Translations under genes and position numbers: made by a program
From: Halobacteriales archaeon QS_1_69_70
GTDB taxonomy: Archaea; Halobacteriota; Halobacteria; Halobacteriales; Haloarculaceae
DNA: 64,000 bases
Assembly: GCA_003021005.1 (NCBI GenBank)
Contig: PXRI01000017.1
Location: 63,980 to 127,979, forward strand
Direction of reading: 5' to 3'
Part shown: positions 10,554 through 57,751 of the stretch, in pieces
Layout of the letters: every line of letters begins with the position of its first letter
Position numbering within the stretch: the first letter of the stretch is position 1
The notes under the pieces: generated by a model
Told to the model about the DNA's origin: nothing
Databases searched by the model: none
The model's input: only the letters and a program-made list of their open reading frames with translations

Positions 10554-10917
10554 CGCCACTGTTCAGATAAGCAAAGGTGGCCGGCACAACCGACCTCGGG
10601 CGGGAATTCCGAAGGGGCCGACCGCTCGCCGGTGTAGGCGACGCAAGCAGCGCGGGAGCCGCCGGCTCCCGCGGGCAGTCGGCGCTGTGCGCCGACTGCC
10701 CGCGAGGGACCGACGGTCCCTCGGCCCGCTCGCGCGGCAGCGCCGCGCGAGGACACCGCAGCGAAGCGAGGAGCGCAGCGAGCAGTAGCGAGGCGCGACC
10801 GAAGGAAACGCCTCGACACGAACGGGGAGCGAAGCGACCCGTGAGCGTACACCGGCGAGCGGGAGGGGGCTTCGGCGGACGAACCGAATACCTCGGTGTA
10901 GTATCTGAACACTGCCG
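10554..10917. mobile_element. Diverged terminal-inverted-repeat element (family A-like)
   Basis: The left end GCCACTGTTCAGATA and the right end TATCTGAACACTGCC are near-perfect inverted repeats. They match the termini of the three family A elements at 22882, 47773 and 54033 (GGGCAGTGTTCAGATTAG). The ~364 bp interior has no protein-coding signal. It contains four adjacent hairpins at 10652-10751 and a run of GAGCGAAGCGA-type repeats. No clear target-site duplication is visible. The element lies between nadE and tRNA-Gly. Confidence 0.55.
10652..10751. repeat. Array of four adjacent perfect hairpins
   Basis: There are four consecutive palindromes, each with a three-base loop. They are 10652-10672 (9-bp stem, loop GCC), 10673-10701 (13-bp stem GGGCAGTCGGCGC, loop TGT), 10703-10723 (9-bp stem, loop GAC) and 10729-10751 (10-bp stem CTCGCGCGGC, loop AGC). 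Spacing between them is 0, 1 and 5 bases. The stems differ in sequence, so this is not a simple tandem repeat; structure, not sequence, is what is repeated. Confidence 0.8.
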
Positions 10918-19199: not shown

Positions 19200-19317
19200 C
19201 GGACCTTCGAAGCGACGGTTCGATGACAGTGGATATTCGTACCGATTTGTGTAATTGTTCGTTCGTATAAACGAGTCAGGGCCATCCGACGATCCGGTAG
19301 TGGAGACTCCCGCCGTC

Positions 19318-19530
19318 CTCGACCGGCTTTCCGATGCCGATACATACGCTACTTCCACCTCCGAAGCCCTCGACCGGCTTTCCGATGCCAACACTTCCGC
19401 CAGTTCCACCTCCGAAGCCCTCGACCGGCTCTCCGACGCAAACATTTACGCCAGTTCCACCTCCGAATCCCTCGACCGGCTCGACCACGACAGCACCCAC
19501 ACCACTACCCACTCCGAAGCCCTCGACCGG
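19318..19530. repeat. 51-bp tandem repeats (about five units) around CCTCGACCGGCT
   Basis: CTCGACCGGCT recurs at about 19318, 19369, 19429, 19480 and 19521 within units of roughly 51 bp. The spacer also conserves TTCCACCTCCGAAGC. On the reverse strand each unit begins AGCCGGTCGAGGGCTTCGGA, which is the same module as GCCGGCCGAGGGCTTTCGAG at 19951-20096 in the other orientation. On the forward strand the frame happens to stay open, giving LDRLSDA repeats. I treat it as non-coding because the same module occurs outside any frame elsewhere. Confidence 0.75.
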
Positions 19531-19539
19531 CTCGACCGG

Positions 19540-19725
19540 CCGGGAGGCACGCTGCGCTCCTCGCTGGCGCTGCGGTGCTTGCGGCCTCCGGGCCGGGTCG
19601 ACCTGCTCACGGCTCCCTGCGGTCGCCGTTCGCATGCGAGGCCTCGGTCGCTTCGCTCCCTGCGGCCTCCCGGTCTCGCCCTTCGAATCCACCAGGACAG
19701 CACCGCGACCGCACCACAGTCCTCC
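19540..19725 (-). ncRNA. Diverged family B element (reverse orientation)
   Basis: On the reverse strand this begins GGTGGATTCGAAGGGCGAGA near 19700, like the starts of the other family B copies (GGCGGACTGAAAGGGCGAGG), and runs into the GCCGGTCGAGGGCTTCGGAG module at 19530. The central hairpin is replaced by GAGCGAAGCGA-type sequence, so the copy is diverged. It forms an outward-facing pair with the copy at 19852. Confidence 0.4.
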
Positions 19726-19851
19726 CCAGCCGACTCGTTCGGCGGGCGCGTCGCGCCCGCCTCCTCGTCCCTCGCGCGCAGAAGCCGACCGCCGCTCGCG
19801 GTTGCTCCCGGCGGTCGACGCGCGCATGCCACGCCGACCGGTCAACCTCCT

Positions 19852-20096
19852 GGTGGACTGAAAGGGCGAGGCCGGGTGGCGGCCGCTGTGAGGGCCCTAT
19901 CCGAGCGAACGCATGTGAGCGAGGATATCCCTCACAGCGTGGTCCGCGAGCCGGCCGAGGGCTTTCGAGGTGGTGGCGGTCTGGGTGGTATCGTGTCCGG
20001 ATGTGTTCGCTAGCCGGCCGAGGGCTTTCGAGGTGGTGGCGGTCTGGGTGGTATCGTGTACGGGTCCATTCGTCGGCCAGTCGAGGGCTTTCGAGG
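19852..20096 (+). ncRNA. Family B structured element with three 63-bp 3' modules
   Basis: It starts GGTGGACTGAAAGGGCGAGG. A hairpin follows: CGCTGTGAGGG (19884-19894) pairs with CCCTCACAGCG (19929-19939), and the inner stem TATCC (19898-19902) pairs with GGATA (19923-19927). Then come three ~63-bp units, each holding GGCCGAGGGCTTTCGAGG or a close variant (from 19951, 20014 and 20075). The copies at 57190-57330 and 57533-57660 keep the fold with changed bases. No convincing coding frame crosses it. Confidence 0.6.
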
Positions 20097-20204
20097 TAGC
20101 TGCTGTCCGTGCCATTGGACCGTATTTCGCTCGTACGAGCTGAGGGCGTTCGGGGTGATTCCGATAGTCCCGATCGAGTTCCCGAACCGATCCAGGGGCG
20201 GATG

Positions 20205-22881: not shown

Positions 22882-23125
22882 GGGCAGTGTTTCGTTTACG
22901 TGTGGAGTAATATTCCGGTGGACGCAAGCCCCCGGCTTCTCGGGTCGGGCGGCTCGCTGCGCGCTTCGCTCACGTCGTTCGCTCCAGTGCTTGCGTCGCC
23001 GTCCTTCCCCGAGAAGCCGGCCCCTTGCGAAGTCCCGCCCGATGTGGTTCACCGAAGGGCCACAGAGCCCAGAGCCCGGTGAGTCGAGGTGCCTGATGAA
23101 CGGCATCCTAATCTGAACACTGCCC
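22882..23125 (-). mobile_element. Family A MITE-like element, copy 1
   Basis: The element is 244 bp. Ends are GGGCAGTGTTTCG at 22882 and the complement of GGGCAGTGTTCAGATTAG at 23125. It is flanked on both sides by GCCGCG (22876-22881 and 23126-23131), a perfect 6-bp target-site duplication. The core holds CCCCGGCTTCTCGGG and its complement CCCCGAGAAGCCGG, which can pair as a long stem closed by GACGCAAGC/GCTTGCGTC. No transposase is encoded. Orientation is opposite to copies 2 and 3 on the chromosome but the same relative to the adjacent gene. Confidence 0.85.
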
Positions 23126-47772: not shown

Positions 47773-48018
47773 GGGCACTGTTCAGATTAGAATGCCGTTC
47801 GTCAGACACATCGACTCACCGGGCAAAGGGCCTCAGTCCGCCCCTCGGAGAACCATATCGGGCGGGACTCCGCAAGGGGCCGGCTTCTCGGGGAAGGACG
47901 GCGATGCAAGCACTGGAGCGAACGACGTGAGCGAAGCGCGCAGCGAGCCGCCCGACCCGAGAAGCCGGGGGCTTGCGTCCACCGGAGGATTACTCCACGT
48001 GTTAACTGAACACTGCCC
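47773..48018 (+). mobile_element. Family A MITE-like element, copy 2
   Basis: The element is 246 bp, from GGGCACTGTTCAGATTAG (47773) to TAACTGAACACTGCCC (ending 48018). It is flanked by the perfect 6-bp repeat CGGACC (47767-47772 and 48019-48024). The core has GGCCGGCTTCTCGGGG near 47880 and CCCGAGAAGCCGGGGGC near 47957, forming a stem around the GATGCAAGC/GCTTGCGTC arms. A frame starting ATGCCGTTCGTCAGACAC is open, but its protein is not supported. It separates the DUF7471-like gene and the wHTH regulator. Confidence 0.87.
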
Positions 48019-50097: not shown

Positions 50098-52128
50098 GTG
50101 GTCGACCCCACCGACCGCTCCCGTCGCCTGCTCGCCATCGCCGCCGCCGTCGCGCTGATCGGGGTGGCGACGCTCGCACCGGTCGTCAGCGCCCACGCCG
50201 TCCTCAGCGAAACGGACCCACAGCAGGGCGGCCACGTCGAGGACGTCCCGGAGACGATCACGCTCACCTACACGGGTGACGGCGTCGACGAGATACTCGA
50301 CGTGACGGTGACCGGCCCGGACGGTCAGGAGGTGACCGGGAACGTCTCCAAGGACGGCGCGGTCGCAACGGAGGTGTTCGTCGACGTCACGGACGCGGGC
50401 GAGGGCGTGTACGTCGTCGAATGGGAGATCCAGTCGACCGACACGCACGTGGTCCGGGGGTCGTGGTTCTTTACTGTCGGCGAGGCGGCGCTGGACCCGG
50501 CGACGCTGCTCGCGTCCTACGAGGCCGACGACCGCGGTGGCGGCACCGTCGATACCGACCCCGAATACGGCCAGGTGCTGCCGACGGGACTGCTGTACCT
50601 CGCCGTGGTCGCCCTGCTCGGGATGCCGGTCGCCCTCGTGGCGGCGCTCCGGCCGGTCGCCGACCGCTCGGACATGCCGCGGCGCGTCGTCGACGCGACC
50701 GTCCGTCGACTCCTCACCGGCGCGGCCGTCGTCGCGGCAGGCGCGACCGGCGTCCTCCTCCTGGCGTCCGTCCGTGCCGCTGGCGGAACCGGGGCAGCCG
50801 AGGCTGCACTCGGGAGCCGTACCGGACGCGTCCTCCTCGGACAGGTCGTCGTTGCGGCCGGCGCCGCGTTCGTCCTGTCGGCCCGCACCCTGCGGGACCC
50901 CGCCGACGGGGAGTCGAAGGCGGCGGGCGGCCGGGCGTGGCTCGCTGCGGCGGCCCTCGCCGGGTTGCTGCTCGCCGCCGGACAGGGCGCGACGAGCCAC
51001 GCCGCCAGTCAGGTCGGCCTCCCCGTCGGCACGGCCGTCACGCTCGGCCACCTCATCGGGGTCGCCGTCTGGGCGGGCGGGCTCTTCGCCGTCGCCGTCG
51101 CGCTCCCGGCGGCGCTCCGCCGGACGGCTCCCGGCGACCGCCGAGTCGCCGCGACGGGGGTCGTCCGCCGGTTTTCCGCGCTCGCGGTGGCCGGGGTGAC
51201 GCTCCTCGTCGCGACGGGACTCGGCCTGACGGCGTGGCTCGTGCCGTCGCCGGCGGCCTTCCTCCGGACGCTCCACGGGAGCGTCCTCGGGGTGAAACTG
51301 TCGCTCGTGGTCGTCGCACTCGGCCTCGGCGCGCGGTCCCGGTACGTCCTCCTCGAGCGGCTCGACCCCACGACGGCGGACCCGAGACGGCTACTCGCAC
51401 GCCTACCGGGCGGTGACCGACTCCCGTTCGTCGGCCCTCGCCGCCGACCCGATGACGGACCTGGCGAGCGGTCGGGTTCGGACCCCGGTCCCGTCCGGGC
51501 GGTCGTCGGAACCGTCAGGCTCGAGGCCGCCGTCGTGGTCTGTGTCCTCCTGGTCTCGGGGCTGCTGACCGCGACCGTGCCGGGCGTCGTCGCCAGCGTG
51601 GACGACGGCCCCGGCGCGGGCAACGAGACGGTGCCGGTCTCCGCCGAGGGCGTCGAGGCCGAACTCGAAATCGTCCCCGCCCGACGCACCGACCGCGGGC
51701 TGGCGGTGACAGACGGGGCCCCGATCGTCGCCAGACTCGAGCTGCGGAGCGACGACGGCGATCCGATCGAACTCGAGTCCACCGAGCGGGTGCTCGCCGA
51801 CCACGCCGAATCCGGCACCACGCTCGATCCCGAACTCGAGCCGATGGACGCCCCCGGCACCTACGCCGCCGTTCTCCTCTTCCCCGAGACGGGGGCGTGG
51901 GACGTGCGGTTGAATGTCTGGACGGGCGAGGCGTTCCTCGACGACTCCGTCGTCGTCCACAACGAGCCCGCCGGCGCCCCGGACGGGGACGGGACGGTGC
52001 AGGGCGACTCCCGGGACGGGACGTCGCCGTTCGGGATCCTCCTGCAGTCGGCGGCAGTCGGCGTCGGCCTGGTCGGCCTCGTCGCGACGGGCCGCGAGGG
52101 GCTCCGGATCGCGCGGCGCGGCGAGTGA
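50098..52128 (+). CDS. CopC-CopD fusion protein (copper resistance/import)
   Basis: The protein has 676 residues. After a signal sequence comes a CopC domain, from about residue 32 (SAHAVLSETDPQQGGHVEDV; the His after the cleavage site is a copper ligand in CopC) to 130 (DTHVVRGSWFFTVGE, with the second His region). CopD follows with eight membrane helices from about 165 to 420 and 455-480, including SHAASQVGLPVGTAVTLGHL and GVAVWAGGLFAVAVALPAAL. A C-terminal beta domain (about 490-650; GTYAAVLLFPETGAWDVRLN) resembles an extra YtkA-like or CopC-like fold, and one final helix ends the protein. Such fusions move copper across the membrane or control it. Start is GTG 50098. Confidence 0.9.
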   Translation: MVDPTDRSRRLLAIAAAVALIGVATLAPVVSAHAVLSETDPQQGGHVEDVPETITLTYTGDGVDEILDVTVTGPDGQEVTGNVSKDGAVATEVFVDVTDAGEGVYVVEWEIQSTDTHVVRGSWFFTVGEAALDPATLLASYEADDRGGGTVDTDPEYGQVLPTGLLYLAVVALLGMPVALVAALRPVADRSDMPRRVVDATVRRLLTGAAVVAAGATGVLLLASVRAAGGTGAAEAALGSRTGRVLLGQVVVAAGAAFVLSARTLRDPADGESKAAGGRAWLAAAALAGLLLAAGQGATSHAASQVGLPVGTAVTLGHLIGVAVWAGGLFAVAVALPAALRRTAPGDRRVAATGVVRRFSALAVAGVTLLVATGLGLTAWLVPSPAAFLRTLHGSVLGVKLSLVVVALGLGARSRYVLLERLDPTTADPRRLLARLPGGDRLPFVGPRRRPDDGPGERSGSDPGPVRAVVGTVRLEAAVVVCVLLVSGLLTATVPGVVASVDDGPGAGNETVPVSAEGVEAELEIVPARRTDRGLAVTDGAPIVARLELRSDDGDPIELESTERVLADHAESGTTLDPELEPMDAPGTYAAVLLFPETGAWDVRLNVWTGEAFLDDSVVVHNEPAGAPDGDGTVQGDSRDGTSPFGILLQSAAVGVGLVGLVATGREGLRIARRGE

Positions 52129-54032: not shown

Positions 54033-54278
54033 TTGGGACTGTTTAGATTAGTATGCCGTTCGTCAGACAGCTCCACTCACCGGGCGCAGGGCCTCATTCA
54101 GCCGCTCGGAGATCCATATCGGGCGGGACTCCGCAAGGGGCCGGCTTCTCGGGGACGGACGGCGACGCAAGCACTGGAGCGAACGACGTGAGCGAAGCGC
54201 GCAGCGAGCCGCCTGACCCGAGAAGCCGGGGGCTTGCGTCCACCGGAGGATTACTCAACGTGTTACCTGAACATTGCA
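54033..54278 (+). mobile_element. Family A MITE-like element, copy 3
   Basis: The left end GGGACTGTTTAGATTAG starts near 54035 and the right end ACCTGAACATTGCA lies near 54278. A 6-bp repeat CGCGGG flanks it (54027-54032 and 54279-54284). The core is over 90 percent identical by eye to copy 2, including CGGGCGGGACTCCGCAAGGG and CCGGCTTCTCGGGG with its complement CCCGAGAAGCCGGGG. Ends are more worn than in copies 1 and 2. It finishes 63 bp before the halocyanin start codon. Confidence 0.83.
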
Positions 54279-57189: not shown

Positions 57190-57330
57190 AGTTTGCGAAG
57201 CCCTCGGCCGGCTCGCGGACCACGCTGTGAGGGATATCCTCGTTCCCTGACGGTCACTCGGATAGTTGCCCCCACAGCGGCCGCCACCCGGCCTCGCCCT
57301 TCGAGTCCGCCAGGAACGACGCCACAGCCC
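57190..57330 (-). ncRNA. Family B structured element, reverse orientation
   Basis: Read on the reverse strand it begins GGCGGACTCGAAGGGCGAGG (near 57330). CGCTGTGGGGG and CCCTCACAGCG (57269-57279 with 57223-57233; one A/C mismatch) form the outer stem and TATCC/GGATA the inner one. It ends GCGAGCCGGCCGAGGGCTTC. Outside the loop, most of the sequence matches the copy at 19852. It faces away from the copy at 57533. Confidence 0.55.
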
Positions 57331-57532
57331 TCCCCAACCGACTCCTCACGGCTCACTCCGTTCGCCGTTCGTCGTCCCTCGCGCGGTGTCCGCCGACCGC
57401 TCCTCACCGCGTTCGGAGCGGTCGGCGAGCACGCGCCTCGCTGAAAGCGTCCTCCCGCAGGCGGGCCCGTCAGCGGTATGGCTGGCCGCGCGATCTCCCG
57501 GGGTTGGTCTACGGCTGGTCGAAAATATGTTC
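57331..57532. other. Spacer between the two outward-facing family B copies
   Basis: No gene is seen. The left part shares CCACAG(C/T)CCTCCCCA, then CCGACTC and TCGTCCCTCGCGCG with the spacer between the copies at 19.7-19.85 kb, so the whole two-copy block, not just the RNAs, is related between loci. Confidence 0.5.
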
Positions 57533-57715
57533 CCTGGCGGACTGAAAGGGCGAGGCTCGCTGGCGCCCTGGGCAGTCGCTGAGCGGGCTCTACCCGAACG
57601 AAGTGAGGGTATCCCGCTCAGCGACCGCCAGCGGGCCGAGGGCTTTCGAGGGTGTAGCGGTATGGGTTTTCGGTTCGCGTGCCTTATGATGACTGCCAGC
57701 GGGCCGAGGGCTCTC
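57533..57715 (+). ncRNA. Family B structured element, forward orientation
   Basis: It begins CTGGCGGACTGAAAGGGCGA. The outer stem GTCGCTGAGCGGG (57575-57587) pairs perfectly with CCCGCTCAGCGAC (57613-57625), and the inner stem TACCC (57591-57595) pairs with GGGTA (57607-57611). The 3' module GGGCCGAGGGCTTTCGAGGG occurs at about 57633 and again in a weaker form near 57703. Stem bases differ from the 19852 copy but pairing is kept. Confidence 0.62.
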
Positions 57716-57751
57716 GGTCGCGCTGACCATACGGAACCGTCTACGCCGCCG

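Follow-up and report, generated by a model that had tools for sequence, protein, structure and literature searches.

Family B, a hairpin unit found at two loci of the window (the whole stretch of 64,000 nt analysed here, from Halobacteriales archaeon QS_1_69_70), is in our preferred reading a constant, folded component shared by a large family of non-autonomous mobile elements in the intergenic DNA of haloarchaea, and we assign this reading a probability of about 0.6. The TIR-bearing form would be moved in trans by an IS6-family transposase and the paired form would be copied by another machine. The hairpin would be maintained because copying or tolerance of the element depends on one strand being folded, either as RNA or as single-stranded DNA. 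Some single units lie in IS6-type MITEs with matching terminal repeats and 8-bp duplications. The pairing is conserved through compensatory changes and, judged from the alignments, the fold looks selected. The loci of the window are paired copies without recognisable IS6 repeats that are inserted between genes. The paired polar form known from another genus could not be filed under any described family in the open-access literature. With Family B it can be tested directly whether selection on non-autonomous elements of prokaryotes can act on a fold instead of on terminal repeats.

Two loci with paired hairpins in the window

Each Family B unit forms a hairpin, about 115 nt long, that consists of a fixed 5' core (GGYGGACTGAAAGGGCGAGG), a varying arm that is nearly always paired, an inner fold and a fixed 3' foot (CCGAGGGCTTTC). 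The inner fold exists in two kinds, type 1 and type 2, and the core is common to both. The initial annotation had listed copies at 19852(+), 57533(+) and 57330(-), and all three are real; in a search of the window with R1, the model of the type-2 hairpin, they were recovered at 19852-19966 (E 1e-21), 57536-57647 (E 6e-24) and 57196-57311 (E 2e-18). The scores of the two plus copies are not independent, since both are rows of the R1 alignment, and the minus copy is outside that alignment. The features of the two loci are as follows.

57196..57311, minus strand: hairpin of type 2, minus partner in the 57-kb outward pair (R1, 98.9 bits)
57279..57314, no strand: left arm of a stem able to join both cores (inverted repeat I1, 36 nt, 83% complementary)
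57322..57336, plus strand: spacer motif CCACAGCCCTCCCCA (from the sequence)
57533..57568, no strand: right arm of the I1 stem joining both cores, partner of 57279-57314
57536..57647, plus strand: hairpin of type 2, plus partner in the 57-kb outward pair (R1, 125.1 bits)
57691..57716, plus strand: tail repeat, a second copy of the 3' arm (direct repeat D1, 92%)
19310..19532, minus strand: five tandem tail repeats with a 51-bp period on the minus side (direct repeat D3)
19516..19624, minus strand: type-1 hairpin of the diverged minus copy, apart from its core (R2, 36.2 bits)
19670..19693, minus strand: 5' core GGTGGATTCGAAGGGCGAGACCGG of the minus copy (from the sequence; inverted repeat I3)
19714..19728, plus strand: spacer motif CCACAGTCCTCCCCA (from the sequence)
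19852..19966, plus strand: hairpin of type 2, plus partner in the 19-kb outward pair (R1, 114.5 bits)
19950..20166, plus strand: four tail repeats with 59-63 bp spacing (direct repeat D2)

The diverged fourth copy that had been placed near 19700 on the minus strand was recovered in part: its core is present, and its hairpin is of type 1 (model R2, E 1.7e-5), in contrast to the other three copies, which have the type-2 fold. This minus copy at 19.5-19.7 kb is apparently a disrupted type-1 hairpin that was split from its core by a nested insertion. The core lies within inverted repeat I3 (19662-19697 and 19848-19883, 83%), and the related spacer motif that had been described for both loci is indeed present at each. 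With up to two mismatches, the core CTGAAAGGGCGAGG was matched four times in the window, as compared to 0.49 expected matches, and with up to three mismatches the tail GGCCGAGGGCTTTCGAGG was matched six times, as compared to 0.23 expected. One of the four core matches, at 51918, was rejected as a Family B copy. The ending said to be common to all copies applies to the plus copies; both minus copies (19.5 kb and 57 kb) read GGGCTTCG at the tail instead of GGCCGAGGGCTTTCGAGG. A repeat search of the two loci showed that tandem repeats of the 3' arm, spaced by 51-68 bp, sit outside the hairpins, a feature absent from the initial annotation, and the identity of the D2 tail repeats drops outward from 100% to 66%.

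Both loci lie between convergent genes, as the initial annotation had stated. The 19-kb locus is flanked by genes for DUF7113 and NurA, and the 57-kb locus by a 58-aa ORF without a Pfam match and a gene for a mandelate-racemase-like (MR_MLE) protein. The 57-kb pair is overlapped by long mechanical ORFs. The only Rfam matches in the window at the gathering threshold were three tRNAs, in line with a structured element that has no Rfam family at this threshold.

Covariation in two types of hairpins

The collected loci contained 165 core copies. Those with a recognisable end gave 109 distinct copies, comprising 48 of type 1, 60 of type 2 and one other. Alignment A1 of the type-1 hairpins comprises 46 sequences, with two of the 48 copies (L009, L077) left out, and alignment A2 of the type-2 hairpins drops three of the 60 copies, namely L081 and the two window copies L002 and L003. 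For the covariation counts, A2 was used with both window copies, giving 59 sequences; L086 is in neither alignment. Outer and inner stems with compensatory changes had been claimed and were found as described, with double compensatory changes in 21/31 consensus pairs of type 2 (59 sequences, 97.1% of cells paired) and in 21/32 consensus pairs of type 1 (46 sequences, 95.3% of cells paired). In neither type did any of 500 shuffles reach any of the covariation measures, and the paired cells dropped to 22-53% when the partners were slid by 1-3 columns. Since the consensus structures were derived from the same alignments, the slide control is insufficient on its own, and shuffles can be exceeded by related copies. 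The stronger evidence is the count of doubly changed cells, which was 146 in type 2 and 202 in type 1, as compared to means of 27 and 52 in the shuffles.

On the strand that runs from core to tail, G-U cells outnumbered A-C cells by 48 to 11 in type 2 and by 36 to 11 in type 1. When the sequences were clustered at 85% identity, the numbers were 32 to 9 and 16 to 5, respectively. The corresponding numbers in shuffles were 98 to 67 and 75 to 59, so the excess of G-U in the hairpin is partly a matter of base composition. The G-U excess suggests that the hairpin folds preferentially on the core-to-tail strand, be it as RNA or as single-stranded DNA.

Copies inside IS6-type MITEs

The sequence GTGTTCAGATAA, with up to two mismatches, was found upstream of 18 of the 165 core copies, in 16 of these at 56-61 nt before the core, and in no case upstream in the wrong orientation; downstream there were 14 occurrences, as compared to two in the wrong orientation. 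A repeat of the GTGTTCAGATAA consensus also bounds a 697-bp IS, the 211-aa protein of which is an IS6 transposase (NF033587, E 9e-60). Ten copies have both ends, and their 8-bp duplications match at 8/8 positions in one copy, at 7/8 in three (these four being L048, L093, L131 and L134) and at 1-5 of 8 in the remaining six. An eleventh copy, L049, has a left end with a deletion and a duplication of 8/8. IS6 has probably moved some of the Family B copies. The initial annotation had named a match to an IS end as something that would refute its proposal, and such a match exists for a minority of the copies, in IS6-type MITEs with 8-bp duplications. Because this minority sits in such MITEs, Family B is at least partly a mobile repeat. 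The other 147/165 core copies, including those of the window, have no IS6-like TIR at two mismatches, and no IS6-type terminal repeats were found around the window loci at 19 kb and 57 kb.

Three related MITEs were identified elsewhere in the window.

22883..23124, minus strand: related MITE with IS6-type ends, hairpin at 22924-23036 and a duplication of 8/8 (R2, 86.9 bits)
47774..48017, plus strand: related MITE with IS6-type TIRs, inner type-1 hairpin at 47864-47976 and a duplication of 8/8 (R2, 86.5 bits)
54035..54278, plus strand: related MITE with decayed TIRs, hairpin at 54125-54237 and a duplication of 6/8 (R2, 84.4 bits)

All three MITEs have a type-1 hairpin, and their outer stem is GCAAG/CTTGC, as compared to GAAAG/CTTTC in Family B. 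The IS6 family, in the parts of a review relevant here, is characterised by 8-bp duplications and halobacterial members, and includes two MITEs of 227 and 336 bp (PMC7986276). The Family B subset and the related MITEs of the window resemble the IS6-family MITEs of those parts of the review in that they are short, with IS6-matching TIRs and an 8-bp duplication (PMC7986276). In contrast to them, most Family B copies are without these TIRs, and Family B has a covarying hairpin core and a paired outward form.

No IS6 genes over the cut-off were found in the genome of the window (82% complete; fragments below the cut-off only) or in G286, G280, G289 and G058, and genomes with many copies are often without an intact IS6 gene. 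Genome G043, which is without a core or an R1 match, contains six IS6 genes over the cut-off, three of them with an internal stop. Copy number is not tracked by the counts of IS6 or Y1 transposases. A further element of the window, at 10555-10916, has near-perfect IS6-type ends and a duplication of 1/8; its foot is CGAAG/CTTCG, and its type-1-like hairpin is accompanied by many nested ones; L159, from the same genome, resembles it and has a duplication of 8/8.

Outward pairs and their polarity in one genus

We defined a pair as neighbouring hairpins within 700 bp. Among the matches listed in a public genome scan (at least 119 loci), 17 neighbours were outward-facing and none inward-facing; genome HArc-gm2 contributed eight of these 17 listed pairs, and seven other genomes the remaining nine. 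Eight further neighbours among the matches listed were on the same strand, with gaps of 7-57 nt; we take them to be tail pieces, or a single hairpin that an insert has divided, and left them out of the pair counts. In a second genus, 39 stretches of genomes G286, G191 and G265, picked around listed hits, contained 33 outward, one inward and two same-strand neighbours, and the genome of the window contained five outward pairs and no inward pair. The outward orientation that had been noted at two loci is therefore general in all three sets, of which the first two overlap (G286 is HArc-gm2); some genomes occur twice among the sets, so that the copy and pair counts are not all independent. Among the R2 matches listed for G075, G027 and G080, at least six outward pairs are only 23-31 bp apart.

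The members of a pair can differ in type. Three pairs of the window's own genome combine a type-1 hairpin on the minus strand with a type-2 hairpin on the plus strand, the 57-kb pair consists of two type-2 hairpins, and in L006, which is reversed, type 2 is on the minus and type 1 on the plus strand. The pairs of G286 and G191 have two distinct terminal sequences, which we call alpha (..CTGTACTGACC) and beta (..GAACCACCCGTTCA..). We assigned 17 alpha and 17 beta ends, with 36 of 70 ends unassigned, and all 13 pairs with both ends assigned had one of each. The G286/G191 pairs are thus elements with polarity, about 0.5 kb long, in which an alpha and a beta end enclose a structured spacer. In 19 spacers that were oriented by a looser rule than the one used for the ends, the hairpin on the beta side was of type 1 in all 19, and the hairpin on the alpha side was of type 1 in 11 and of type 2 in eight. 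As to the alpha end, we considered that it could be a known IS end, and rejected this: its pattern (one mismatch) occurred only in G191 and G286 among ten genomes, and no IS was identified.

The spacer is itself folded. Ten of the 19 oriented spacers were used for this analysis, the nine with large inserts being dropped, and they share a branched fold closed by two inverted cores. Double changes were observed in 16/54 pairs on the beta-to-alpha strand and in 12/53 pairs on the other strand. G-U exceeded A-C on both (45 to 9 on the beta-to-alpha strand and 34 to 9 on the other), so that no strand is singled out in the spacer.

For 13 paired elements, target duplications of 4-10 bp were in no excess over shuffled pairings, and for L250 no clean empty site was found among the congeners. 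Neither a transcript nor an excision product of Family B was observed. A more far-reaching proposal is that the paired form is mobile and polar and consists, over its whole length of about 0.5 kb, of nothing but folded nucleic acid. Its outward hairpins (type 1 on the beta side, either type on the alpha side) would fold on opposite strands around the branched, core-closed spacer, and its copier would read the fold and not a terminal repeat. We put this forward tentatively, as a possibility that is more doubtful than probable. In the open-access papers searched, we found no description of such a non-coding mobile element in archaea.

Comparison with REPs, BIMEs and PATEs

Alternatively, Family B could be an archaeal counterpart of the bacterial REPs and BIMEs or of the PATEs of Haloquadratum, in which case a Y1 (HUH) transposase would move the hairpins by way of single-stranded DNA. 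We consider this unlikely, albeit slightly less so than the other alternatives below. REPs and BIMEs are described, in the parts of two papers that concern us, as intergenic hairpins of alternating orientation in many copies (PMC3733652, PMC2817692), and PATEs, in the relevant part of their description, as non-coding elements with near-terminal palindromes and no target duplication (PMC3119063). The paired, mutually inverted and intergenic hairpins of Family B are in line with such a relationship, as is the suggested folding strand of the hairpin. The likeness to PATEs, to the extent covered by that part of the description, is that both are haloarchaeal and non-coding with near-terminal palindromes, and that no duplication was found for the paired Family B form either, in the 13 elements above (PMC3119063). 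Set against the PATE criteria of near-terminal palindromes without inverted terminal repeats or a duplication, the alpha and beta ends differ from each other and the hairpins lie near them, with the position of the ends being approximate. Unlike in PATEs, the two hairpins of a Family B pair are mutually inverted, and the two families were likened by description and not by sequence.

Several observations argue against this alternative. Family B hairpins of about 115 nt come with two inner fold types, as compared to REPs of only 20-40 bp in the relevant part of their description (PMC3733652). Neither A1 nor A2 shows the GTAG/CGTC tag of a REP/BIME hairpin foot in columns that are invariant or nearly so (GG.GGACTGAAAGGGCGAGG), and no link to a Y1 transposase was found. 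RAYTs belong to Y1_Tnp, and this domain was present in 8/12 genomes searched but not found in the genome of the window (82% complete), G058 and G161, which contain 7, 43 and 38 exact core copies, respectively.

Gene context and presence in congeners

A further alternative is that Family B acts as an RNA with a regulatory or terminator role at the 3' ends of genes, with each outward hairpin shielding or ending the transcript of the neighbouring convergent gene. The covariation is strong and RNA-like, and the initial annotation had proposed a preference for convergent sites, which would suit such a role. The proposal holds slightly for pairs and not for single copies. Among the matches listed, 6/16 pairs of the public scan were in convergent gaps (p 0.04), as compared to 18/94 single copies (p 0.52) and 38/235 background gaps; for the pairs of the second genus the number was 6/19 (p 0.11), and in the window's own genome 4/7 loci were in such gaps. 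In tandem gaps, 40 of the copies among the matches listed were co-oriented with the genes and 22 were not (p 0.03). These p values are uncorrected for the number of tests, and one genome is in both pair sets. In an earlier count of all copies among the matches listed, 26/109 were in convergent gaps as compared to 38/188 in the background, and tandem or divergent gaps held the other 83/109. All gap counts rest on a simple codon-score gene caller with no annotation. The earlier count left out 16 copies at edges and seven inside a called gene, of 132; the test of the public-scan matches listed left out 15 of 109 single and one of 17 paired loci at edges, and the G286/G191 test 12 of 31 pairs and two of six singles. 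There is thus no convergent bias for singles and at best a slight one for pairs, and a general claim of convergent placement is not established.

The DUF7113-NurA stretch was compared in ten loci, taken from 19 genomes with a match. Between the alignment ends it measures 1012 bp in the window and 918 bp in G298, and in the eight other congeners the gap is 1-68 bp in seven and 514 bp in one, the latter without core or tail, so that 8/9 congeners compared lack the 1-kb array of the 19-kb locus. As for the 57-kb locus, the plus copy is present in G298, on a contig that ends ahead of the minus side, and G295 has the minus copy only. Family B arrays have been gained or lost, being present in some congeners and missing in others. 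The 514-bp stretch in the NurA-DUF7113 gap of one congener (L211) is a different sequence, and its end resembles what we take to be an IS605-type terminus.

The absence of the NurA-gap array from most congeners argues against a terminator RNA, as do the single copies without convergent bias and the many copies in tandem or divergent gaps. In addition, an outward hairpin that folds on its own strand in a convergent gap would be antisense to the transcript of the adjoining gene. We therefore judge a role at gene 3' ends to be improbable, and return to the hairpin as the folded part of a mobile element.

Selected fold or passive palindrome

The covariation could also have arisen in passive palindromes, through hairpin-templated mutation and gene conversion between the arms, with the fold itself unselected. 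The nested hairpins and tandem arm repeats show that the loci do change by duplication and insertion, which would suit such a process. Yet some of the unpaired bases are fixed or nearly so in both types, namely the A's of AAGCAC in type 1 and, in type 2, the C that precedes TATCC and the T that follows GGATA. Moreover, the outer stem of the related family differs from that of Family B and pairing is kept in both, and the G-U over A-C ratio of the hairpin exceeds that of the shuffles. We consider passive palindromes as improbable as a terminator RNA, and a fold that is maintained within a mobile element the better account.

Distribution among haloarchaea

The public genome scan gave at least 119 related stretches, and all of those listed are haloarchaeal. 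At E 0.001, an R1 search of the order that scored up to 12 candidates per genome matched 134/293 genomes and 52/87 genera. In 82 of the 134 genomes the best match had an E below 1e-10, and many of the others have single weak matches. A covarying hairpin with outward pairs of fixed polarity in this many sampled genomes represents a sizeable, unexplained portion of haloarchaeal intergenic DNA. The exact 14-mer core is present in 44/293 genomes of the order, with a maximum of 97 copies per genome. Since a reversed-pattern control gave 0-2 matches per genome, in 16/293 genomes, those with one or two exact core matches may owe them to chance. Over the phylum, R2 matched 48/294 genomes, all 48 within the order.

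Chance similarity or an assembly artefact, for which one could cite the incomplete genome of the window (44 contigs, 82% complete) and the single or double matches of the reversed control, is ruled out by this order-wide model search, with the same element in complete genomes of many genera and expected chance matches in the window well below one.

The exact core was absent from viral contigs, and phage sequences gave no Family B match. Plasmids gave only six partial matches, in Haloarcula, one of which lies beneath a gene annotated as a hypothetical protein; annotation is affected there, as it is by the mechanical ORFs across the 57-kb pair. We recognised no description of the Family B repeat in the open-access literature, where DNA sequence is not searchable.

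Small inserts and a second use of the core

Double-hairpin inserts (a hairpin, about CTC, a second hairpin and then GGTG or GGCG) were observed inside or beside the units of L011, L061, L065, L134, L143, L245 and L251, and these small inserts recur at the same places of Family B units. They may be another tiny mobile repeat. The small mobile repeats (SMRs) of Haloquadratum are, in the relevant part of their description, short elements with TIRs and no transposase of their own that insert into other elements (PMC3119063), and the double-hairpin inserts resemble them in their nesting inside Family B. In contrast, the same part of that description gives SMRs TIRs and no internal conserved fold (PMC3119063), the comparison being by description and not by sequence.

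The core CTGAAAGGGCGAGG is also half of a palindrome-like sequence, CCTCCCCGCCCTGAAAGGGCGAGGATTCC, around position 1501 in L008 and L034 (a 14-nt match). The palindrome in these two loci is presumably an IS605/TnpB end of haloarchaea.
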